Shown piece by piece: positions 1,455-48,006 of a DNA stretch of 64,000 nucleotides. Position numbers and translations under genes: made by a program. Position 1 is the stretch's first letter, and every line of letters starts with the position of its first letter. The notes beneath the pieces are model-generated. The model was given only the letters and a program-made list of their open reading frames with translations, did no database searches and was not told the DNA's origin. Source of the DNA: Sediminibacter sp. Hel_I_10 (lineage in GTDB: Bacteria; Bacteroidota; Bacteroidia; Flavobacteriales; Flavobacteriaceae); contig NZ_JHZX01000001.1 of the NCBI RefSeq assembly GCF_000688335.1, positions 3,968,001 through 4,032,000 of the forward strand, given 5' to 3'.

Positions 1455-1508
1455 ACAAGCACTGCCTTAGGTATTAAAAACTGAAACCAACGTCTTAAAA
1501 AAATAAGC

Positions 1509-2795
1509 ATGAACATCATACTAAATCCAAAAAAATCAACTTGGTCCAACGTTTTAAAACGCCCAACCAAAACTGTTGAGAATATTGAGCATACGGTCAA
1601 TGAAATTTTTAATGACGTTAAACGCCATAAAGACAGTTCAGTTTTAAAATACACCGAAATGTTCGATGGTGTAAACTTAGATCATCTTTTGGTTTCTGAG
1701 GAAGAACTAAACGCTGCTTCCAATCACATTTCCGAAGATTTAAAAAGAGCAATTCAAACGGCTAAGCAAAATATTGAGACCTTTCACAAAGCTCAAAAAA
1801 CTGAGAAAATCAAGGTAACAACCACTACGGGTGTGGATTGTTGGCAAGAAAAGCGTCCCATCCAAAAAGTTGGGCTTTACATTCCTGGCGGCACGGCACC
1901 ATTATTCTCTACCGTTTTAATGCTTGCGGTACCAGCTAAAATAGCGGGTTGCAAGGAGATTGTTTTGTGTTCTCCACCAAATAAGCAAGGAAAAATAGCC
2001 CATGAGATTCTCTACACAGCTCAATTATGTGGGGTCACAAAAATTGTAAAAGTAGGAGGAATTCAAGCCATTGCAGGCATGACCTTTGGAACGGAAAGTA
2101 TTCCTCAAGTCTATAAAATTTTTGGTCCAGGAAACCAATATGTCACCGTTGCCAAGCAACTTGCTACTAAATTTGGAGTCGCTATTGATATGCCCGCGGG
2201 CCCTAGCGAATTGTTGGTTGTAGCAGATGATTCGGCCAAGGCGAGCTATGTAGCATCAGATTTGTTGAGTCAAGCAGAGCATGGATCAGACAGTCAAGTG
2301 ATTTTGATTTCTACATCCAAAGCACTCATAGAGGCTGTTTCTATTGAAGTGGAGAAGCAAATCCAGGCCTTGCCAAGAATGGAAATGGCACAAAAGGCTA
2401 TCGATAATTCGAATTTGATTTATGTTGAAAATGATGCTATTGCATTAGAGATCATTAATGCCTATGCACCCGAACATTTTATCATCTGTACCAAAAATGA
2501 AGCATTCTACGTTGATAACGTTTTAAATGCAGGTTCTGTTTTTATTGGTAATTTCACACCTGAAAGCGCAGGAGATTATGCCTCTGGAACCAATCATACC
2601 TTACCCACCAATGGCTACAGTCGCTCTTATTCTGGAGTAAATTTAGATAGCTTTAATAAGAGCATCACCTTTCAAAAAATTAGTGAAGAAGGCATTCTAA
2701 ATATTGGTAAGACTATTGAGTTAATGGCAGAGGCAGAAGGTTTGCATGCCCATAAAAATGCAGTAACCTTAAGATTAAACGACCTTAAAAAATAA
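1509..2795 (+). CDS. hisD: Histidinol dehydrogenase
   Basis: HisD is an NAD- and zinc-dependent enzyme that oxidises histidinol to histidine in two steps, the last reactions of the pathway. The 428-residue length is normal. Diagnostic segments are VGLYIPGGTAPLFSTVLM, the GPGNQYVTVAK motif, DMPAGPSELLV, the zinc and catalytic region with SQAEHGSDSQ, and EHFIICTKN carrying the general-base Glu-His. The distal ESAGDYASGTNHTLPT motif is also intact. The gene lies 54 bases after hisG and only 2 bases before hisC, so it is co-transcribed with both. Confidence 0.97.
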   Translation: MNIILNPKKSTWSNVLKRPTKTVENIEHTVNEIFNDVKRHKDSSVLKYTEMFDGVNLDHLLVSEEELNAASNHISEDLKRAIQTAKQNIETFHKAQKTEKIKVTTTTGVDCWQEKRPIQKVGLYIPGGTAPLFSTVLMLAVPAKIAGCKEIVLCSPPNKQGKIAHEILYTAQLCGVTKIVKVGGIQAIAGMTFGTESIPQVYKIFGPGNQYVTVAKQLATKFGVAIDMPAGPSELLVVADDSAKASYVASDLLSQAEHGSDSQVILISTSKALIEAVSIEVEKQIQALPRMEMAQKAIDNSNLIYVENDAIALEIINAYAPEHFIICTKNEAFYVDNVLNAGSVFIGNFTPESAGDYASGTNHTLPTNGYSRSYSGVNLDSFNKSITFQKISEEGILNIGKTIELMAEAEGLHAHKNAVTLRLNDLKK

Positions 2796-2797
2796 AC

Positions 2798-3853
2798 ATG
2801 ACAACAGATTTCAATCTAAACGAGCTGGTTAGAGATAATGTAAAGGCCATGAAGCCTTACTCTTCAGCACGCGATGAATTTAAGGCGATTGATGGTGCTC
2901 AGGTTTTTTTAGATGCCAATGAAAACCCTTTTGAAAATGGACTTAATCGCTATCCAGATCCACAGCAAGGCCAATTGAAAGCAGCACTTTCTAAGTTGAA
3001 AAACATAGCTGTAGAACATATTCTATTAGGAAATGGCAGTGATGAAGTTTTGGATTTGATCTTTAGAGCTTTTTGTGAGCCCAATAAAGATAATATCATT
3101 TCAGTGCCGCCAACCTACGGCATGTATGGTGTTTTAGCCAATCTCAATGCTATTGAAAATAGGGAAATTCCCTTAGATCCTGATTTTGAACTCGATCTTG
3201 ATAACATCTCAAGAGCAACGAGTACTCATACCAAACTCATTTTTATATGCGCTCCCAACAATCCTACGGCCAATACATTTGCGCCTAATGCTATCGAAAA
3301 CCTCTTGAAAACCTTTAATGGTATCGTTGTTATTGATGAGGCCTATATTGATTTTTCAAAGCACAAGAGTTGGACGAGCCGATTAGAGGATTTTCCAAAT
3401 CTTATAGTCACTCAGACGCTTTCAAAAGCCTACGGAATGGCAGGTATTCGATTGGGTATTTGTTATGCTTCCGCAGAAATTATTGCCATTTTAAATAAAA
3501 TCAAGCCACCATATAATATCAATGAACTAACGCAGCAAAAAGCTCTGGAACGATTATCTCATCCAGAAAAAGTAACAGAAGAAATCCAAAAGATCTTAAA
3601 ACAGCGTACCTGGTTAATTTCAAAATTAAAGCAGAATACTATTATTGAAACTGTCTATCCGTCTGATGCTAATTTTGTTTTGGCAAAGGTTGATGATGCT
3701 AACAAACGTTATGATCAATTAATAACACAAGGGATCGTGGTTAGAAATCGTAGTAATCAACCCGGTTGTGAAAACTGTTTGAGATTTACGGTGGGTACCC
3801 AATTTGAAAATATTAAATTAGTTAAAGCACTAGAAGATATTGCAGTAATATAA
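2798..3853 (+). CDS. hisC: Histidinol-phosphate aminotransferase
   Basis: This is a PLP-dependent class I/II aminotransferase that converts imidazole-acetol phosphate to histidinol phosphate with glutamate as donor. The 351 residues include LDANENPFENGLNRYPDP, which recognises substrate, and the cofactor-binding ICAPNNPTAN and VVIDEAYIDF. The PLP lysine is in TLSKAYGMAGIRLG, about residue 210. The C-terminal arginine region GCENCLRFTVGT is present. It is separated from hisD by two bases, so translation is probably coupled. Confidence 0.96.
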   Translation: MTTDFNLNELVRDNVKAMKPYSSARDEFKAIDGAQVFLDANENPFENGLNRYPDPQQGQLKAALSKLKNIAVEHILLGNGSDEVLDLIFRAFCEPNKDNIISVPPTYGMYGVLANLNAIENREIPLDPDFELDLDNISRATSTHTKLIFICAPNNPTANTFAPNAIENLLKTFNGIVVIDEAYIDFSKHKSWTSRLEDFPNLIVTQTLSKAYGMAGIRLGICYASAEIIAILNKIKPPYNINELTQQKALERLSHPEKVTEEIQKILKQRTWLISKLKQNTIIETVYPSDANFVLAKVDDANKRYDQLITQGIVVRNRSNQPGCENCLRFTVGTQFENIKLVKALEDIAVI

Positions 3854-3884
3854 CCATATACCTTCTAAAAAATAAAAGAAGATC

Positions 3885-5018
3885 ATGCCAAGAGTATTAT
3901 TTATAGATAGAGACGGAACGCTTATTAAAGAACCCGCTGACCAACAAATTGATTCCTTCCAAAAATTGGAGTTTTACCCAAAAGTGTTTCAATACTTAAG
4001 TAAAATTGCAAAAGAATTGGATTTTGAAATCGTTATGATTACAAATCAAGACGGCTTAGGAACAGAAGTGCACCCAGAGGATAAATTTTGGCCAGTTCAT
4101 AATTTTGTGTTGCAAACATTCAAATCTGAAGGAATTATTTTTAAAGAACAGTTTATCGATAGAACCTTTGCAAAGGATAACGCCCCAACCCGTAAACCAA
4201 ATACAGGACTTTTGACTCAGTATTTTTCTTCGGAATACGATCTTGAAAATTCATTTGTCATCGGTGATAGGTTGACAGACGTTGAACTTGCCAAAAACTT
4301 AGGTGCCAAAGGTATTTTTATTAATGATCACACACATTTAGGCACTAATGAGATCACTGTAAAACGGGATGATTTAGAGGATTTTATTGCTTTAGAATCT
4401 AATGATTGGGAGGAAATCTATACCTTTTTAAAATCTGATGCCAGAACAGGAAGCTTAGAACGGAACACCAATGAAACCAAGATTAAGATTGATCTTAATC
4501 TTGATGGTACTGGAAAGAGTAAAATTGATACAGGTCTTGCTTTTTTTGACCATATGCTAGACCAAATTGCAAGACACGGTCAATTAGACTTAAATATCAA
4601 AGTAGATGGCGACTTAGAGGTTGATGAGCACCACACTATTGAGGATACCGCTATTGCATTGGGAGAGCTATTTGCTCAAACCCTTGGTAATAAATTAGGT
4701 ATAGAACGCTATGGTTTCGCATTACCTATGGATGATTGTTTAGCCCAAGTAGCCATAGATTTTGGAGGTAGAAACTGGCTAGTATGGGAAGCAGACTTTA
4801 AAAGGGAAATGATTGGTAAGATGCCTACCGAGATGTTTTACCATTTCTTTAAATCCTTTACAGATGGGGCAAAATGCAATTTAAATATTAAAGCCGAAGG
4901 GACTAACGAGCATCATAAAATAGAAGCCATTTTTAAGGCCTTTGCCAAAGCTATTAAAATGGCCGTAAAACGGGATTTGGAGAAAATGATTTTACCATCA
5001 ACTAAAGGAACCCTTTAA
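3885..5018 (+). CDS. hisB: Bifunctional histidinol-phosphatase / imidazoleglycerol-phosphate dehydratase
   Basis: This is a fused enzyme for two non-consecutive steps. Residues 1 to about 165 are a HAD-family phosphatase: [12 protein letters not shown] carries the nucleophilic and acid/base Asp pair, [11 protein letters not shown] the second motif, and [11 protein letters not shown] the magnesium-binding motif. Residues about 185-377 are imidazoleglycerol-phosphate dehydratase, with the metal ligands in [28 protein letters not shown] and [17 protein letters not shown]. The fused form is well known in enterobacteria and Bacteroidota. It sits 31 bases after hisC and 11 bases before hisH. Confidence 0.96.
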
Positions 5019-40292: not shown

Positions 40293-41798
40293 CTACAGCG
40301 ACTCTAAAGGTCTTGGATTTTTAATCTTTTGAATACGTTTGTAAACGAGTTCTGCCGAAATCAAACAAATTGGCATCCCAATCCCAGGACTTGTACCTGC
40401 GCCTACATAATAAAGGTTTTTCACCTTCTTACTATAGTTTAAAGGACGTTTTAGGGTTTGTTTTAAAGTATGTGCCAAACCTAAAGCGGTACCTTTATAT
40501 GCATTATAATCGCTTCGGAAATCGTCGCTCCAGTAAGATCTTTCGTAAACAACATAGTCTTCCAGATCTGGAAGGTCTAAATCGGCTTTCATAAGATTTA
40601 AAATTTTCTGACGGTAACTTGCCATAGTCGCTTTAGATAGTTCTAAACCTGGAGGAATAGGTACCAGAACAAACAAATTATCAGTTCCTGGTGGCGATAA
40701 TGCCGGATCAGTTTCCGTAGGCTTACAGATGTAATAACTGGGATCATCTGGGAGTTGGGGCGTATCAAACAGCTCCTTAAAATTTTGTTTCCAATCTCCA
40801 CCGAAGCGAAGGTTGTGATGACTTAAAATATCTAATTCTCTGTCTAAACCCAAATACATGATAAAAGCACTTGGACTAATGACGGCCTTTTCCCAATACT
40901 TCTCAGGATAGGTTTGATACCGTTTCTCAAGCAAATGTGTTTCTGTAAACCATAAATCGGCATTAGAGATGACCATATCAGCTTCTAACACACTGCCATC
41001 CTCAAGTTGTACACCCGTAGCTTTTTTATTTTCCACTATGATTTGAGACACAGAACTATTGGTTATAAATTGAGTGCCATGTGCTTTATTAATAGTGACT
41101 AAAGCCTTTACAATCTCATAAATACCACCTTTGGGGTAATAAACGCCCATATTAAAATCTATGGCATTCATGATGTTATACATGGCAGGAGTTTTTGACG
41201 GATCTGAACCCAGAAACACTAAGGTATATTCTAGTATTTTTTTGACACGATCACTTTTAAACCAGCTGTTGAGATAAGATTGCATGGTTTGAAACGGATT
41301 GAGTTCAATCCCTTTTTTTATCACATCCCACTTTAAAAAATCTAAAGAAAACCCAAGATTACGATACATGAACGTATTTTTCGCCATCTCATATTGTTCA
41401 CCAGAACGTTTGAGGTATTCTTTAATCTTAGGCGTAATACCGGGTTCTAACTGTTCGAAAAGAGGTAAATCTTTTTCTAAATCGGAATGAATATCAACTA
41501 CAGGTAACTCCTTATCATTAGAAAAAAACACACGGTAAGAGGGGGAAAGTTTAACTAGATCTAAGTGTTTTGAAAGATCTTCATCTAGTAATTTGAAATA
41601 GTGTTCAAAAACATCGGGCATTAAATACCAGGAAGGCCCCATATCAAAAGTGTAACCGTTGGCTTCAAAAATATTGGCACGACCGCCTAGATTGGTGTTT
41701 TTTTCAATTACAGTAACTTCATATCCAGATTTAGCCAACAAGGCAGCAGCACCTAAACCTCCAATCCCAGAACCGATAATGATGATTTTCTTTTTCAA
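40293..41798 (-). CDS. crtI: CrtI-family carotenoid desaturase
   Basis: The 501-residue flavoprotein begins IIIIGSGIGGLGAAALLAKSG (the Rossmann FAD-binding motif). It has the family segments NLGGRANIFEANGYTFDMGPSWYLMP and SFKGTALGLAHTL-like, here YKGTALGLAHTLKQTL, and ends with the CrtI signature YYVGAGTSPGIGMPICLISAELV. It introduces conjugated double bases into a carotenoid backbone. Sequence alone does not separate phytoene desaturation (CrtI) from 3,4-desaturation (CrtD). No phytoene synthase is nearby, so the symbol is tentative. Confidence 0.85.
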   Translation of the reverse strand: MKKKIIIIGSGIGGLGAAALLAKSGYEVTVIEKNTNLGGRANIFEANGYTFDMGPSWYLMPDVFEHYFKLLDEDLSKHLDLVKLSPSYRVFFSNDKELPVVDIHSDLEKDLPLFEQLEPGITPKIKEYLKRSGEQYEMAKNTFMYRNLGFSLDFLKWDVIKKGIELNPFQTMQSYLNSWFKSDRVKKILEYTLVFLGSDPSKTPAMYNIMNAIDFNMGVYYPKGGIYEIVKALVTINKAHGTQFITNSSVSQIIVENKKATGVQLEDGSVLEADMVISNADLWFTETHLLEKRYQTYPEKYWEKAVISPSAFIMYLGLDRELDILSHHNLRFGGDWKQNFKELFDTPQLPDDPSYYICKPTETDPALSPPGTDNLFVLVPIPPGLELSKATMASYRQKILNLMKADLDLPDLEDYVVYERSYWSDDFRSDYNAYKGTALGLAHTLKQTLKRPLNYSKKVKNLYYVGAGTSPGIGMPICLISAELVYKRIQKIKNPRPLESL

Positions 41799-42115: not shown

Positions 42116-42499
42116 TTAGATCGCATCATTGATTTCAATCCAATAACCGTTTGGATCTTGAAAGTAAACCTGTTTAACCTTATCTTTTCGAATATAATCT
42201 TTGTTCGGTGTATCCTTCCAGTCTGAGTAATCGATTTTTAATGCTTCCAGATGCTTGATCAAGGCATTTATATCAGTTGTTGATAACGCAAAATGAACGG
42301 CCTTATTTATTTTAATTTCAGAATTTGGACGAGGAATCAGATGAAGCTGTTTGCCTTCACCAAGGGATAGCCATCTCGTTTTTGAGTCTGAAGCCGTATT
42401 CTTAATCTCCTCAAGTTGAAGAACCTCCTGATAAAATGCAACAGATTGATCCACATCTTTTACAGAAAGGGCAATATGATTGAATAAAAAACTAAACAT
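42116..42499 (-). CDS. VOC-superfamily (glyoxalase-like) protein
   Basis: The 127 residues form two beta-alpha-beta-beta-beta units of the vicinal-oxygen-chelate fold. The metal ligands look intact: His in FNHIALSV, His in KQLHLIPR, His in AVHFALST and Glu in YWIEINDA. The length and pattern fit glyoxalase I-like or dioxygenase-like enzymes; the substrate is not predictable. It is a single gene on the minus strand, upstream of and divergent from the tandem UvrA gene. Confidence 0.85.
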   Translation of the reverse strand: MFSFLFNHIALSVKDVDQSVAFYQEVLQLEEIKNTASDSKTRWLSLGEGKQLHLIPRPNSEIKINKAVHFALSTTDINALIKHLEALKIDYSDWKDTPNKDYIRKDKVKQVYFQDPNGYWIEINDAI

Positions 42500-42705
42500 A
42501 AATTGTCTTAATTATACATGAGAACGTCAAACGTAATATAAACCGTCTCATAATTTAGTTCAAAATTATTGGATAAATTTAGGTCAACTAAAATACATTT
42601 TATCAAATACTCCGAAGGTTTTTTATAAAACAATCGTTCTAATTAAAATTTAGAACGCGTTACCAAAAGCTCCCCAGACGCTTCTATAAGCCCTTATATT
42701 CTTTA

Positions 42706-42713
42706 TACCTTTG
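42706..42713 (+). promoter_or_regulatory. Candidate -7 element of the tandem uvrA gene
   Basis: The sequence tacctttg matches TAnnTTTG exactly and lies 33 bases before the ATG at 42746. No clear -33 TTG is seen at the expected distance, so this is a partial promoter match. Confidence 0.4.
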
Positions 42714-42745
42714 GAAATTCTAAAACTAAAGAAGCCTTTCGCAGT

Positions 42746-45700
42746 ATGAAGATCACCAATGCCCATCAAAATAATCTCAAGAATATCGATTTGAACATAC
42801 CTGAAAACCGTTTAATCGTGGTCACCGGGTTGTCTGGCTCTGGGAAATCTTCCTTGGCTATGGGCGTGATTGCTAATGAAGGCTACCGTTACTTTCTAGA
42901 AAGCTTACCAGCGTATAGTCAACAAAATGGGGAAATGATTCCCACGGCAGAGGTCGATGATCTTGAAGACTTACCACCTGTAATAAAGGTAGAACAAACC
43001 AAACGCTTCCAATCCATCAATGCCACCTTTGGAACGCTCTCTGAGTTGGCCGCCATCTTTAGAATTATTTTTGCCCGTTATTCTGGTGAGAATACCATGA
43101 GCAAGTCCCTGTTTTCCTTTAACCACCCTAAAGGCGCCTGTGAGGTGTGCCGTGGCATTGGTGAAGCAGAGTATATTGATCTTGACAAATTGGTGGGTGA
43201 TCCCAATAAAACCCTGAGAGAAGGCGCTATAACAACGACTTTGCCTAACGGCTATATCGTATATTCCCAAATAACGGTAGAAGAACTTAATAAGGTCTGT
43301 AAAGCACATGGCTTTTCGGTAGACATCCCTTGGAAAACACTGTCTGAGGCACAAAAAGACGTCGTTCTAAACGGTAGTGATCGGCTCAAGGTCTTCTACG
43401 GAAAACATGGACTGGAGTCACGTCTTCGTTGGCAAGGTATTAAGGCCAAACCTCGCGAAGAGGGCTACTATAAAGGAATGCTACCCATCATGCAAGACAT
43501 TTTAAGACGGGATAGGAATCCCAATATCTTGAAATTTGCAAGCTCTAAAGTCTGCCCAAGTTGCAAGGGTGGCCGTATTAAAGCCGAACATCTCAAATAC
43601 CATTGGAAGGGCTTAAATTTTCAAGACTGGATGGAGCTGCCTTTAACCGATTTGTATGCGCATCTCAATCAACTTGAGTTAAATAGCGGCGAAAAGCTTC
43701 TGGTCGATAAAATGGCCACTCAGTTGTTAGATCTCATTCGTCTAGGCATGGACCATTATCAATTGAGTACACCGAGTACGTCCATCTCTTCTGGAGATGG
43801 ACAGCGCATTAAGCTCATCAATCAAGTCAATAGCAACCTGCAAGGAATACTGTATGTGTTTGATGAGCCTTCTATTGGCTTATCCGCCAATTACCAAAGG
43901 TATCTGCTCCATATTTTGGACCGATTGATCAAACGTGGCAATACAGTCATGGTGGTAGAACATGACTTAGACTTCATAAAAGCCTCGGATTGGATTGTAG
44001 AGTTAGGACCTAAAGCCGGAATTTACGGCGGGGAAGTGGTTTATAACGGTACCACGGCAGACTTTTTAAAGGTCAAAAACCGCAACAGTCCTACCTTATC
44101 TGCCATTGCAATGGTGAGTGCTGAAAAGGCTCAAAATTCAGAAAACAATAGCATAAAACAGACGCTAGCCAACCTTCAGCCAAAAACAAATCAATTAGCT
44201 GTGGTGAGTCGAAAAACACCTCAGTTTTTAAAACATATCACGAGTTACTGCCAACAGGAGGGTTTAAATCTGCTAACGGTCAACGATCAACCCATTGGTA
44301 AAACTCCACGAAGTAATCCAGCAACTTATACAGGTTTAGCGGATAAGACCAGGGATCTGCTGGCGAAAACCCAGGAAGCCAAATCCTTAAATCTTGGAAA
44401 AAGTGCCTTTTCCTTTAATAATAAAAAAGGACGCTGTGAAATTTGTGAAGGCGCTGGCGTGATTACCCTTTCTATGAGCGTCATGGGCAGCATCAACCAA
44501 ACCTGTCCCACCTGCAACGGAAAACGGTTTAAGGCGGAAGTGCTTCGCGCACATTATAAAGACAAAACCATAGCCGCTATCTACAATCTCAGTATTGAAG
44601 AGGCTTACGATTTCTTTTCCGAAGAAAAGAAGATTACCGAGATCTTGTCCTTAATGATCCAATTGGGTCTGGGATATATCAAACTTGGTCAGCCTTCTAA
44701 CACCTTATCGGGAGGAGAAGCACAGCGTATTAAACTGACCAAACACTTCGCCAAAAAATCGAAACAAACGCTTTTGGTGTTGGAAGAACCTAGTATAGGA
44801 TTACACCATCAAAATGTGGTGCAATTGTTGGACGCCCTCAACCAACTAAAGGCGCAAACGGCAGGCATCCTGTGTTTTGAAAATCATCCTTTATTTCTTT
44901 CTGCTTGTGATATTTGGGTAGATAATGCATTAGAGGTTGAAACTATTGCCATAAATGATGAAGCGCCTCAGCAAAGAGATCACATTGCTATTAGAGGTGC
45001 AAGAACTCATGCACTCAAGGACTTGGATTTGGATTTTCCCAAGCAACAGTTATCGGTGGTTACGGGTATATCAGGCTCGGGTAAATCGTCTTTGGTAATT
45101 GATACGTTGCACGGTTATGGACTTCAGGAAATGACCAAACAGTTTTCGGCATACCAACAATCTAGAGTAGGAGTGAATTTTCAGTTTGACGTCAATTATA
45201 TTGAAGGCCTAACACCTAGTATTTGCATTACAAGAAAACAAAAAAACGAGTCCCTACGTTCGGATATTGCAAAGCAAACGGGCATTGATAAAGTCTTACG
45301 ATTTGCTTTTTCCCGAAAAGCGCAATATGAAGGTGAAGAGTTATCTGCAAGTCATTTTTCTAATAACCACGAATTAGGAAAATGTACCATTTGTGAAGGT
45401 ATTGGTCAAGAATTACGTCCCGATCTTGATAAGTTGGTTTTAGATACCAATAAAAGTATTGCGAGCGGTGTTTTTAGCCACAATAAAGCCATTGGTTATT
45501 ATGGAGACCCTTTAGGGCAACATATGGCCATTTTAAAGGCAATAGGAGATGAACATGATTTTACTTTGGAAACCCCATTTAATAAACTCTCATCACAACA
45601 AAAAGACATCGTGTTGCATGGTACCGGAGATCGAATTTGGAAAGCCAATTGGGTCTATCAAACAAAAACAAGACAGGGAACGCAAGCGCTTAGTATGCCA

Positions 45701-47248
45701 TGGAAAGGTTTGTTTACCTACCTACAAGACGAATATTATAAAACTCGAAAAAACAAAAACATCGGTCATCTTACAGCGCTTTTTTCTCAACAGGAATGCA
45801 GCCATTGTAAGAGCAGCGGGTTAAAACCGGCGCGATTGAAGTTTCACATTGGGGGCAAATCCATTGCTGCCATTACCGCTATGGATTTTAAAGCGCTAGG
45901 CGAGTGGCTATCTCAAAATACCAGTACTAAAGATATTGACGGACAACTGCTCTCCAAAATTGAGCCGCACCTTCACAATACCATTGCAAGAGCAAAGGAA
46001 CTGCATATTGATTACCTGCAACTCAACCGAAAATCACCAACACTTTCAGGTGGAGAAAATCAACGGGTGGCTCTCATCAAGCAGTTAAAGAGTCCGTTAA
46101 AAGGAATCACCTATTTATTAGATGAACCTTCTGCAGGCCTATCTCAAGAAAATATTCCAGACTTGATACGCATACTGAAAGAGCTAATTGCTAAAGGAAA
46201 TACTGTGATTGTGATTGAGCATGATAAATCCATCATTCATGCGGCAGATCATATCGTACAAATTGGACCAAAAGCAGGAGCATTAGGCGGCTATATCACC
46301 TATGAAGGCAATACAGAAGGATTATTGCAACAACCCGGTTGCCATCCTTTTTTAAAAGCACCTAGCAAAACCGTAAAACTTAAAGACGGGACAACGCATG
46401 TCAACATTAAAAAGTTAGCCAAGCACACCCTATCGAAAGATAAATTACAGGTACCCATTGGCGGTATCACAGCGCTAACAGGGAAATCTGGCGTTGGTAA
46501 AACCACATTGGTAAAAGACATCTTGATCCCAAGTATCAAAACCAATCAACCCATCAATTGTAGTTACATTGATTTCCCAAAAACGTATAGTGGCGCCCAT
46601 TATTTTGAACCTAAAAAACTAAGAACCTATAACCAGACCTTACTAGTAAATTACTTAGGTTTGTTAAAGGACATTAGTGCTCTATTTGCTAGTAAAACCG
46701 ACTTAAAAGCAAAAGACTTCTCATATAAGACCAAAAATAGCCAATGCCCAAATTGTAAAGGCATGGGATATATCGAAACCAGTTTAGACCTTGCAGCCAA
46801 TGCCATTGAAATTTGCGAAGTATGTGATGGCAAACGTTATCAACCCCATATTTTAGCTTATGAGGTGCATTCTAAAACCATTGCTCAGGTTCTGGCGATG
46901 ACTATTGCGGAATTAAGTTTATGGAGTTCAGATTTTAAAATAGCTGCTAGTAGCGAAGCACTTATCAAAAGTTTAGAAGCTATTGGCTTGGCACATTTGA
47001 GTTTAGAACAAACGGTGCAGTCGCTTTCTTCTGGAGAGAAGCAACGTTTACTGTTATTGAACTGGCTGAAAGAGAGTCCTGAAAACGAGCTCTTTATTTT
47101 AGATGAACCAAGTACTGGCTTGCATTATGCAGATATTGATTTGCTTTATGAGATCTTAAAAGAACTGAGTGCTACAAATGACATCTTGGTGATTGATCAC
47201 AACCCATATCTACTTGAAAAAATAGGAGTGGGACTGGTTTTGAAGTAA
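42746..47248 (+). CDS. Double-length UvrA-like ABC ATPase (four ABC modules)
   Basis: At 1500 residues this is about 1.6 times normal UvrA, and it is two UvrA units in tandem. P-loops are at 28-36 (GLSGSGKSS), about 773 (GISGSGKSS) and about 1246 (GKSGVGKTT). The expected second P-loop near 485-500 is lost (LAVVSRKTPQF). Signatures are SISSGDGQR (about 347), LSGGEAQR (654), LSGGENQR (1100) and LSSGEKQR (1428). Zinc-finger Cys pairs are CEVC/CPSC, CEIC/CPTC, CTIC/CSHC and CPNC/CEVC. In both halves the segment between the first P-loop and the first finger is short (for example FARYSG runs straight into KSLFSFNHPKGAC), so the UvrB-binding domain is absent. It likely binds DNA, but probably not in UvrABC repair with UvrB; self-protection against DNA-binding compounds is possible. 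Confidence 0.93.
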   Translation: MKITNAHQNNLKNIDLNIPENRLIVVTGLSGSGKSSLAMGVIANEGYRYFLESLPAYSQQNGEMIPTAEVDDLEDLPPVIKVEQTKRFQSINATFGTLSELAAIFRIIFARYSGENTMSKSLFSFNHPKGACEVCRGIGEAEYIDLDKLVGDPNKTLREGAITTTLPNGYIVYSQITVEELNKVCKAHGFSVDIPWKTLSEAQKDVVLNGSDRLKVFYGKHGLESRLRWQGIKAKPREEGYYKGMLPIMQDILRRDRNPNILKFASSKVCPSCKGGRIKAEHLKYHWKGLNFQDWMELPLTDLYAHLNQLELNSGEKLLVDKMATQLLDLIRLGMDHYQLSTPSTSISSGDGQRIKLINQVNSNLQGILYVFDEPSIGLSANYQRYLLHILDRLIKRGNTVMVVEHDLDFIKASDWIVELGPKAGIYGGEVVYNGTTADFLKVKNRNSPTLSAIAMVSAEKAQNSENNSIKQTLANLQPKTNQLAVVSRKTPQFLKHITSYCQQEGLNLLTVNDQPIGKTPRSNPATYTGLADKTRDLLAKTQEAKSLNLGKSAFSFNNKKGRCEICEGAGVITLSMSVMGSINQTCPTCNGKRFKAEVLRAHYKDKTIAAIYNLSIEEAYDFFSEEKKITEILSLMIQLGLGYIKLGQPSNTLSGGEAQRIKLTKHFAKKSKQTLLVLEEPSIGLHHQNVVQLLDALNQLKAQTAGILCFENHPLFLSACDIWVDNALEVETIAINDEAPQQRDHIAIRGARTHALKDLDLDFPKQQLSVVTGISGSGKSSLVIDTLHGYGLQEMTKQFSAYQQSRVGVNFQFDVNYIEGLTPSICITRKQKNESLRSDIAKQTGIDKVLRFAFSRKAQYEGEELSASHFSNNHELGKCTICEGIGQELRPDLDKLVLDTNKSIASGVFSHNKAIGYYGDPLGQHMAILKAIGDEHDFTLETPFNKLSSQQKDIVLHGTGDRIWKANWVYQTKTRQGTQALSMPWKGLFTYLQDEYYKTRKNKNIGHLTALFSQQECSHCKSSGLKPARLKFHIGGKSIAAITAMDFKALGEWLSQNTSTKDIDGQLLSKIEPHLHNTIARAKELHIDYLQLNRKSPTLSGGENQRVALIKQLKSPLKGITYLLDEPSAGLSQENIPDLIRILKELIAKGNTVIVIEHDKSIIHAADHIVQIGPKAGALGGYITYEGNTEGLLQQPGCHPFLKAPSKTVKLKDGTTHVNIKKLAKHTLSKDKLQVPIGGITALTGKSGVGKTTLVKDILIPSIKTNQPINCSYIDFPKTYSGAHYFEPKKLRTYNQTLLVNYLGLLKDISALFASKTDLKAKDFSYKTKNSQCPNCKGMGYIETSLDLAANAIEICEVCDGKRYQPHILAYEVHSKTIAQVLAMTIAELSLWSSDFKIAASSEALIKSLEAIGLAHLSLEQTVQSLSSGEKQRLLLLNWLKESPENELFILDEPSTGLHYADIDLLYEILKELSATNDILVIDHNPYLLEKIGVGLVLK

Positions 47249-47355
47249 AAATTATTTAATGGATTAGCATTTGCACGACGTGATGTTTTCCAAAGCACAT
47301 TTCAGGAGTTCTATGGAAGATCAACTGAATTACATTTTGATTCATCACCAGGCTC

Positions 47356-48006
47356 TTAAAGTTTGAATTCCTTAATATTTTCATTGATATCAAAAATATG
47401 AGGATAGTGTGCTTTAATATTCTGTTTCATAAAATCAATGGGCACATCTTCAAAATGGCCGTAATCGTCAATGTATTCCATAAACCGCAGGCCATTGCTG
47501 TTGTACTGTTGTAAAAACGAATGCTGTTCGCCATCAAAATCCAAAGGGTCTACATTCAATTTCTCACACAAGGACGCATTAAATGCTGGCGACATTTTTA
47601 ACCAAGTATTCCCTAGATAGGCGTTAACCATGCCATGAGGCGTTAATTCATTAGACCCAAACTTTTCGGTCAATCGTTCTACTGCAATATGGTTTTTTAC
47701 TTTCCCAAGATGCAATCTTGCCGGTATGTCTAAAGCACGAAGGCAAGCAATTAACAGAATGGCTTTTTCAACACAATTACCAGACTGTTTTTTGGCGATA
47801 TGACTTGACTTATACTTTTCTTCTGAAAGACTGATCGTGTAGGGATCGTATGTCCAACCATCACGTACTTTGGTGTATAATGCTATGGCTTTGGCTTTAT
47901 CTGAAAGCTGTTCAGTTTTTAACTCAGAGATCAGCTCTTGAATGGGTGCGGTCTCAAAATCAAAAAAATAGGTCGGTTTTAAATAAGGCATAGTGTTTAT
48001 TTGCAT
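47356..48006 (-). CDS. Transglutaminase-like superfamily protein
   Basis: The 216-residue protein has the papain-like transglutaminase core: the catalytic Cys in SGNCVEKAILLIACLRALDIPARL and the His in LTPHGMVNAYLG. A Trp-Asp/Ser-containing segment (TWLKMSPAFNASL) is in the place of the third residue. In bacteria this fold is usually a cysteine protease or amidase rather than a cross-linker. I start at the ATG 48006; a TTG at 48024 would add six residues and abut the stop of the upstream ABC gene. It lies directly downstream of the two-gene ABC unit and may be part of it. Confidence 0.8.
   Translation of the reverse strand: MQINTMPYLKPTYFFDFETAPIQELISELKTEQLSDKAKAIALYTKVRDGWTYDPYTISLSEEKYKSSHIAKKQSGNCVEKAILLIACLRALDIPARLHLGKVKNHIAVERLTEKFGSNELTPHGMVNAYLGNTWLKMSPAFNASLCEKLNVDPLDFDGEQHSFLQQYNSNGLRFMEYIDDYGHFEDVPIDFMKQNIKAHYPHIFDINENIKEFKL

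Follow-up and report, generated by a model that had tools for sequence, protein, structure and literature searches.

UvrA proteins have reportedly been sorted into classes in an older review. The canonical, class I proteins share with the protein described here an ABC ATPase core, an insertion domain and zinc modules 2 and 3; they also possess zinc module 1 and a domain for binding UvrB. Class II proteins are homodimers of single-protomer chains. They have a UvrA core without the UvrB-binding domain, retain the insertion domain, carry two zinc modules per protomer, and would typically display consensus motifs at their ATP sites. In PMC5128194, class II UvrAs are said to contribute to the repair and tolerance of DNA damage. 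For one of them, Ecm16, PMC10192343 reports that the insertion domain is required for DNA binding and governs drug-DNA discrimination, and that resistance is independent of UvrA, B, C or D. The Deinococcus radiodurans protein UvrA2 (2vf7/2vf8) is built in the same way: it lacks the UvrB-binding domain, keeps an insertion domain and carries two zinc modules in each protomer. UvrAs of double length are represented by the profile NF001885 (PRK00635, 1809 positions), which we take to describe a chlamydial protein, and which appears from its length and name to join two UvrA units in one chain. Because the length of the model implies it, these units are probably of class I size, with the UvrB-binding domain kept. 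Our literature search, which covered listings and the openings of abstracts for papers outside subscription, found none on such a tandem protein, whether under the name of a double or duplicated UvrA or of a ‘class III’ one.

The gene discussed here lies in a window of 64,000 nucleotides from Sediminibacter sp. Hel_I_10, the whole stretch of DNA that was analysed. It encodes 1500 amino acids in one frame that begins with ATG and contains zero internal stops (Table 1). A preliminary description, made from the window alone, had recognized two UvrA halves in this single frame, and this holds: the frame is uninterrupted, and the profile TIGR00630 aligns with it twice. When 78 relative loci are sorted by their match and the length of their frame, 52 fall within the tandem family; in 43 of these the gene is one long open frame, and in the other nine it is broken or ended by the end of a contig. 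An artefact of assembly or frame that joins two genes is thus excluded. The aligned set comprises 43 sequences, the window protein and 42 relatives, and divides into clades A (26 members) and B (17 members), which span Flavobacteriaceae and Saprospiraceae. Double UvrAs had been described as rare, and so they are, occurring in 1 of 296 genomes sampled across the phylum and in 12 of 299 sampled across the family. Their distribution is patchy; both of the other congeneric genomes sampled within the family lack the gene. Phylogenetically, half 1 forms one clade and half 2 another, each with support of 100, and the same A/B branching recurs in both. Recent internal duplication is rejected for this reason and, as read from the tree, the two halves were joined in a single, ancient fusion. 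On viral contigs, 40 loci resemble half 1, with 30–51% identity.

Table 1. Features of the tandem uvrA gene (window coordinates)
Feature	Position	Strand	Basis
Tandem uvrA gene of class II type, 1500 aa	42746..47248	+	ORF; TIGR00630 aligned twice; closest solved relative 2vf7
Half 1 (residues 1-738), whole UvrA protomer fold without UvrB-binding domain	42746..44959	+	AF2, Foldseek
Half-1 Walker A, ATP-binding domain I (proximal site), intact	42827..42853	+	Motif alignment
Half-1 junction where canonical UvrA holds the UvrB-binding domain (residues 112-122)	43079..43111	+	Alignment
Zinc module 2 of half 1, first CxxC (partner 43553-43564)	43139..43150	+	CxxC 43/43
ID1, half-1 insertion domain (residues 146-262), more conserved between clades A and B than any other stretch	43181..43531	+	Identity comparison
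Half-1 signature I (distal site), degenerate SISSGDGQR	43781..43807	+	Motif alignment
Half-1 Walker B, ATP-binding domain I, intact DEPS	43844..43885	+	Motif alignment
Half-1 position of the lost Walker A II motif (distal site)	44189..44239	+	Motif alignment
TPRSNPATY motif, retained by half 1 but no longer present in half 2	44303..44329	+	Motif alignment
Zinc module 3 of half 1 (CxxC 44435-44446, 44504-44515)	44435..44515	+	CxxC 43/43
Half-1 signature II (proximal site), intact LSGGE	44696..44737	+	Motif alignment
Half-1 Walker B II (distal site), Asp to Glu, LEEPS	44768..44812	+	Motif alignment
Half 2 (residues 739-1500), whole UvrA protomer fold without UvrB-binding domain	44960..47245	+	AF2, Foldseek
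Half-2 Walker A I, intact	45056..45094	+	Motif alignment
Zinc module 2 of half 2 (CxxC 45383-45394, 45797-45808)	45383..45808	+	CxxC 43/43
ID2, half-2 insertion domain (residues 893-1002), conservation about that of half-2 core	45422..45751	+	Identity comparison
Half-2 signature I, intact LSGGE	46034..46075	+	Motif alignment
Half-2 Walker A II, intact	46466..46510	+	Motif alignment
Zinc module 3 of half 2 (CxxC 46745-46756, 46814-46825)	46745..46825	+	CxxC 43/43
Half-2 signature II, LSSGE	47015..47056	+	Motif alignment

Both halves lack the UvrB-binding domain, as the preliminary description had proposed. TIGR00630 skips from profile position 113 to 262 in half 1 and from 114 to 256 in half 2, the place of this domain, and Pfam UvrA_inter (PF17760) is found in neither half in the complete lists of matches at E<=0.01, which also rules out a copy hidden elsewhere in the protein. 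The search for a canonical uvrA elsewhere in the genome, suggested at the outset, finds two class I UvrAs, and both match PF17760 (1.6e-28 and 3e-19). Zinc module 1, likewise a class I feature, is missing too (no CxxC within residues 1-131). UvrA_DNA-bind (PF17755) matches both halves. With its two halves added, the whole protein scores above the cut-off of the UvrA equivalog TIGR00630 (1069.3 versus 729.8 bits), and below that of NF001503 (1046.3 versus 1147). Its score against the double-length NF001885 is far below the cut-off (665.1 versus 3054). AlphaFold2 models of the halves, each made separately, have pLDDT values of 85.4 (half 1) and 87.3 (half 2), and comparison with UvrA structures bears out a complete protomer fold without the UvrB-binding domain in each. 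By sequence, the closest solved relative is UvrA2 (2vf7, E 3.8e-151). In Foldseek, both halves superpose on class II Ecm16 (7sh1_B) at 3.3 Å rmsd, the smallest among the matches listed; ranked by E-value or by query TM-score, structures of class I stand above those of class II for both halves, and these rankings do not settle the class. Judged from the sequence, it is the missing domain that settles the assignment as class II-type. This absence naturally suggests a role that needs no contact with UvrB, in keeping with the class II precedent. By analogy, the tandem protein would probably work like Ecm16/DrrC, whose architecture it shares, as a UvrB-independent DNA clamp. It might instead be an accessory sensor that aids the excision repair of its host, for instance by handing lesions over to the canonical UvrA–UvrB pair; the genome does carry uvrB besides its two class I UvrAs, and repair and tolerance of damage are what class II UvrAs are reported to serve (PMC5128194). 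With a UvrB-binding domain in neither half, however, any link to excision repair would be indirect, and we consider this quite improbable.

The tandem protein differs from UvrA2 in that its chain comprises two protomers that are not identical, one of which has a degenerate ATP site. The ‘four ABC modules’ counted previously are present as folds; as motifs they are not, because Walker A has disappeared from one of these ATP-binding modules. The affected site is the distal one of half 1. Its signature I departs from LSGG in all 43 sequences, the Walker B Asp is replaced in 42 of 43, and Walker A is lost in all 26 members of clade A. In clade B, 14 of 17 members keep this Walker A, and so the site may still bind nucleotide there. 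A changed signature I is also seen in further class II proteins, such as L088 and L091 (both LSPGE). Half 2 has consensus Walker A motifs at both sites in 43/43. By these motifs, then, the distal site of half 1 is degenerate, and half 2 retains both of its sites. The zinc ligands had been undercounted: rather than four Cys pairs there are eight CxxC pairs, present in 43/43 sequences, and they make up four zinc modules (modules 2 and 3 of each half).

A second asymmetry concerns the insertion domains. Between clades A and B, ID1 is 67.3% identical, versus 38.8–47.8% for the three core regions of half 1 (442 pairs); the rest of half 1 is about 41% identical between these two deepest clades. Fifty of the 117 columns of ID1 are invariant, versus 7 of 110 in ID2. 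In the ordinary UvrAs that we compared, few and of differing depth, the insertion domain is the least conserved region: 28.4% versus 56.9–75.8% for the core in class I (91 pairs, 14 sequences), and 31.8% versus 49.3–55.4% in class II (45 pairs, 10 sequences). Among four close class II proteins the deficit is small (66.4% versus 72.2–87.1%), and within clade A, ID1 (85.6%) does not rise above the first core region (86.2%). Outside ID1, conservation is strongest in residues 516-632, a segment that contains the TPRSNPATY loop and the zinc hairpin, both DNA-contacting elements in UvrA. Fourfold-degenerate sites in ID1 are saturated (0.263 observed, 0.257 expected), which places the constraint on the protein and rules out recent exchange of ID1 between the clades. 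One of the patterns by which relatives were retrieved, EEGYYKGM, falls within ID1 (residues 238-245), and so the conservation there stems in part from how sequences were selected. With residues 234-250 dropped, identity between the clades is still 64.1% in ID1 versus 40.7%. Two clade-B-like sequences obtained by other searches, L223 (with the whole protein) and L224 (with half 2 of L042, the only query without any ID1), give 64.3 and 68.2% versus 40.9 and 40.1%, and 61.9 and 66.9% in ID1 when 234-250 is dropped. On these two sequences and the removal of 234-250, retrieval bias is countered as the source. The pattern suggests that ID1, one of two likely DNA-reading arms, recognizes one specific target, although it might bind protein or RNA instead of DNA.

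A target beyond chromosomal damage, such as RNA, the ribosome or invading DNA, recognized through the arm ID1, would fit this conservation, as any invariant macromolecule would, and a distribution as patchy as this one, within the genus and beyond, is what accessory functions typically show. The presence of UvrA_DNA-bind in both halves, and the conserved loop and hairpin of residues 516-632, speak against it, as do the 25 PADLOC matches listed, which are seemingly short, generic ABC similarities (best mad3, best stretch 84 residues); on these matches anti-phage defence was rejected, and we regard the broader proposal as very doubtful. The gene might, alternatively, protect against a DNA-targeting antibiotic, as the preliminary description had suggested, by binding drug-loaded DNA in the manner of DrrC/Ecm16 and ejecting environmental DNA-binding natural products by ATP hydrolysis. 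Ecm16 has the same domain set, and plasmids carry relatives of single length (753 matching records), one of the 15 listed being annotated as daunorubicin resistance protein DrrC; none of these 15, however, is of tandem length. Genomic context lends this suggestion nothing, since, of the neighbour families listed (25 per scan; 132/149 listed neighbour proteins, 40/50 loci), none for biosynthesis or export recurs. The tandem protein is fused, unlike Ecm16/DrrC, and one of its insertion domains is conserved across lineages. Drug chemistry is expected to vary by lineage, whereas ID1 is 67% identical from Flavobacteriaceae to Saprospiraceae; a reader domain so conserved favours one constant target, and we think drug protection unlikely. 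More generally, the neighbours are diverse and none is decisive as a clue to function. In an empty-site comparison with the same-genus genomes G383 and G596, no other window gene is recognized in some 19 kb around their copy of the VOC gene, and the remaining window matches are on other contigs. A shared operator was also considered and set aside: the only upstream element to recur, in some members of clade A, is a short, AT-rich sequence that resembles a promoter, and a sigma-70 scan of 42400-47500 gives 14 sites versus 13.4 expected.

The reading that we favour, with moderate confidence, is a single-chain, asymmetric clamp that operates independently of UvrB. Half 1 would read a single constant target, and most of the ATPase activity would come from half 2. 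The halves would pack head to head, like the two subunits of a class II dimer. Half 1, the reader, would grip its target on duplex DNA by means of ID1, the TPRSNPATY loop and the zinc hairpin; half 2, with two consensus ATP sites, would be the motor. Cycles of ATP in half 2 and at the proximal site of half 1 would open and close the clamp, which would displace or mark what it finds, with no handover to UvrB. Ordinary excision repair would be left to the two canonical UvrAs, working with UvrB in parallel.

More tentatively, and with somewhat less than even confidence, we propose that these proteins form a family of UvrA-derived sensors, dedicated readers of one target that act without UvrB across the Bacteroidota. 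Half 1 would combine a constrained insertion domain with a dead ATP site, half 2 would be the faster-evolving motor, and the target would be an unchanging lesion, a DNA structure or a DNA-bound factor. The protomers of a homodimer cannot be mutated separately. Here, natural fusion and differentiation have separated them, and therefore the ATP sites and the insertion domains can be altered one at a time. As a conserved domain of 117 residues, ID1, finally, offers a handle on the natural target, and so on what UvrB-independent UvrAs recognize.

The tandem uvrA of Sediminibacter sp. Hel_I_10, whose genome is one contig of 4,106,053 bases, is an uninterrupted frame of 1500 codons, divided here into half 1 (residues 1–738) and half 2 (residues 739–1500), with insertion domains ID1 (residues 146–262) and ID2 (residues 893–1002). 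The preliminary description took it for a double UvrA devoid of both UvrB-binding domains, and the profiles bear this out: the UvrA model TIGR00630 matches twice, skipping profile positions 113–262 in half 1 and 114–256 in half 2, and in a Pfam search each half matches the UvrA DNA-binding (insertion) domain, whereas neither matches UvrA_inter (PF17760), the UvrB-binding domain. Judged by sequence, the class II architecture, that of UvrA without UvrA_inter, occurs twice in one chain. AlphaFold2 models of the halves are confident (half 1: mean pLDDT 85.4, pTM 0.77; half 2: 87.3, 0.79), and both match entire UvrA protomers in a structure search. Class I UvrAs rank first by E-value for both halves; among the matches listed, class II Ecm16 (7sh1_B) has the smallest rmsd, 3.3 A for half 1 and half 2, and the best solved relative by sequence is D. 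radiodurans UvrA2. Elsewhere in the genome, where a canonical uvrA was to be sought, there are two, both with UvrA_inter, and a uvrB that scores over the cut-off. Given these genes, and its own lack of UvrA_inter, the tandem protein is probably not the UvrA that the host uses for ordinary repair. The host's second class I UvrA, present beside the usual one, is divergent, has a UvrB-binding domain, and sits on a long branch in the tree.

Positions of the tandem uvrA and of associated genes
Feature	Sequence or locus	Positions	Strand	Remarks
Tandem uvrA	window	42746-47248	+	
VOC/glyoxalase-family gene	window	42116-42499	-	divergent to, and adjoining, tandem uvrA
Amine oxidoreductase (PF01593)	window	40293-41798	-	directly past VOC gene
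Second, divergent class I UvrA	L002 (host genome)	1501-4197		genome C1:3946347-3949043
PLP-dependent enzyme	L018	4773-6614	-	counterparts in L020, L021, L026, L028, L040, L041, L050, L061
Broken tandem gene	L043	8001-12502		
Broken tandem gene	L056	6108-10887		
Broken tandem gene	L079	1-3956		

A scan of genome contigs returned 78 relative loci, sorted by open-frame length and match into 52 of the tandem family and 26 single-length UvrAs. One long frame is present at 43 of the 52, which upholds the single frame against the assembly artefact considered in the preliminary description; the other nine are broken or truncated. The gene is split into three frames in the complete genome of Lacinutrix neustonica and into two in two MAGs, through decay or sequencing error. 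The window protein was aligned with 42 of the 43 long-frame relatives (L053, with an abnormally long frame, was left out), giving clade A (26 sequences including the window's, about 1500 residues) and clade B (17 sequences, about 1570–1630 residues). Hosts are all Bacteroidota where the record title names a group, which it does not for aligned L037 and L047. The gene is patchy and, as first supposed, rare: it occurs in 1/296 genomes of a phylum sample and 12/299 of a family sample, and is missing from both other same-genus genomes in the latter. A clade-B-like copy is present in 2 of 271 genomes of Fulvivirga's order, one being the query's own; this count required an E-value of 0 and an open frame over 1400, in a search that would not single out clade A copies, which are present in Marivirga.

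A tree of 73 rows places every half 1 in a single clade and every half 2 in a second one, both supported at 100, and the A/B split is alike within both. The tandem family is therefore the product of one ancient fusion; repeated duplication is ruled out by the monophyly of each half and the shared A/B branching. Half 1 groups with short class II singles at a weak support of 83, with four longer class II rows elsewhere and the root arbitrary, so the fused partners may have been twins or two class II proteins that already differed. The family is a real, rare and old variant of class II UvrA. A double architecture as such has a precedent in another double-length UvrA, for which an NCBI model exists; in the searchable literature we found no description of an asymmetric UvrA fusion with a constrained reader domain.

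The neighbours of the tandem gene vary between genomes. In scans covering 132 of 149 listed proteins and 40 of 50 loci (the other 17 were for the most part long or were copies of a PLP enzyme), none of the 25 families listed per scan occurs in more than 4/72 or 3/60. The exception in the clustering is this PLP-type enzyme (614 residues, remotely PF01053, with no NCBIfam match), which lies within about 8 kb in 9/50 loci, with about 0.2 expected. Near the tandem gene it is found in clades A and B, in differing order. Counted per genome, it is present in 39/45 tandem genomes versus 6/198 genomes of the phylum sample. In the family sample, however, it occurs in only 5/12 tandem genomes versus 62/287 others (p 0.10), and a search of the genome that holds the window did not find it. 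Counterparts of the VOC gene in two same-genus genomes have no uvrA in about 19 kb around them; we read the amine oxidoreductase as carotenoid-desaturase-like.

Constraint on the two insertion domains is asymmetric. Over 442 pairs between clades A and B, ID1 is 67.3% identical and the three half-1 core regions 38.8–47.8%; the corresponding values are 37.7% for ID2 and 33.1–39.2% for the half-2 core. In the ordinary UvrAs compared, the insertion domain lies below the core (28.4% versus 56.9–75.8% in class I control pairs, 31.8% versus 49.3–55.4% in class II, and, a weak deficit, 66.4% versus 72.2–87.1% among four close class II proteins), whereas ID1 lies above it; within clade A this contrast is small (85.6% versus 74.1–86.2%). 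Among the 43 sequences, 50/117 columns of ID1 and 7/110 of ID2 are invariant. ID1 is the best-conserved 117-residue stretch of the protein, and the best not overlapping it (residues 516–632, 52%) includes the TPRSNPATY loop and zinc hairpin of half 1. Column-wise tests against the remainder of each half give p = 8e-11 for ID1 and p = 0.018 for ID2 (36.9 versus 34.7%), values that are descriptive because columns are non-independent. Agreement at four-fold degenerate sites is close to that expected from composition (ID1, 0.263 versus 0.257; rest of half 1, 0.268 versus 0.263), and so recent exchange of ID1 and nucleotide-level constraint are both ruled out as explanations of its identity.

One of the retrieval patterns, EEGYYKGM, falls within ID1 and biases the set of relatives, so the comparison was repeated on 12 sequences from whole-genome searches, two of which matched relative loci L014 and L018. 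In the two that are clade-B-like, ID1 is 64.3% and 68.2% identical versus 40.9% and 40.1% for the remaining half 1, and 61.9% and 66.9% without residues 234–250; resting on two such sequences, this control is a confirmation, not a survey. Of these two, L223 was found with an ID1-containing query and L224 with half 2 alone. An ID1 search of the phylum sample matched 34/296 genomes, the window's own copy included, and no full ID1 outside the tandem family; besides that copy and its gene's own half 2, matches are weak, ending at or before residue 93/127. Three plasmid records match 54% of ID1.

The ATP motifs are also asymmetric between the halves. According to two papers, the proximal site of UvrA comprises ATP-binding domain I and signature II, and the distal site ATP-binding domain II and signature I (PMC10192343, PMC6486640); canonical distal sites bind tightly and hydrolyze fast, gated by proximal ATP binding (PMC6486640). 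The proximal site of half 1 is consensus. At its distal site, signature I is not LSGG in 43/43, and is likewise degenerate in 10 further sequences from other searches, non-identical to the 43 in the compared stretch; the Walker B Asp is replaced in 42/43 (L037 excepted), the clade A change being mild, to Glu; and 26/26 of clade A have lost Walker A II, which 14/17 of clade B keep. In half 2, Walker A is consensus at each of the two sites in 43/43. TPRSNPATY is exact in half 1 of 42/43 (TARSNPATY in aligned L049; TPRSNAATY in L224, a further member) and is missing from half 2 in 43/43; the motif is likewise eroded in some class II singles, and so its loss from half 2 is not unique.

We infer that the protein forms a clamp within its single chain, with half 1 as the reader and half 2 as the driver. 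In the scan of the protein, half 2 contains no stretch of 117 residues as conserved as ID1, and the partner of ID1 is therefore more likely to lie outside the tandem protein. An invariant target of this kind would argue for a fixed lesion, DNA structure or DNA-bound factor, over antibiotics that differ between lineages.
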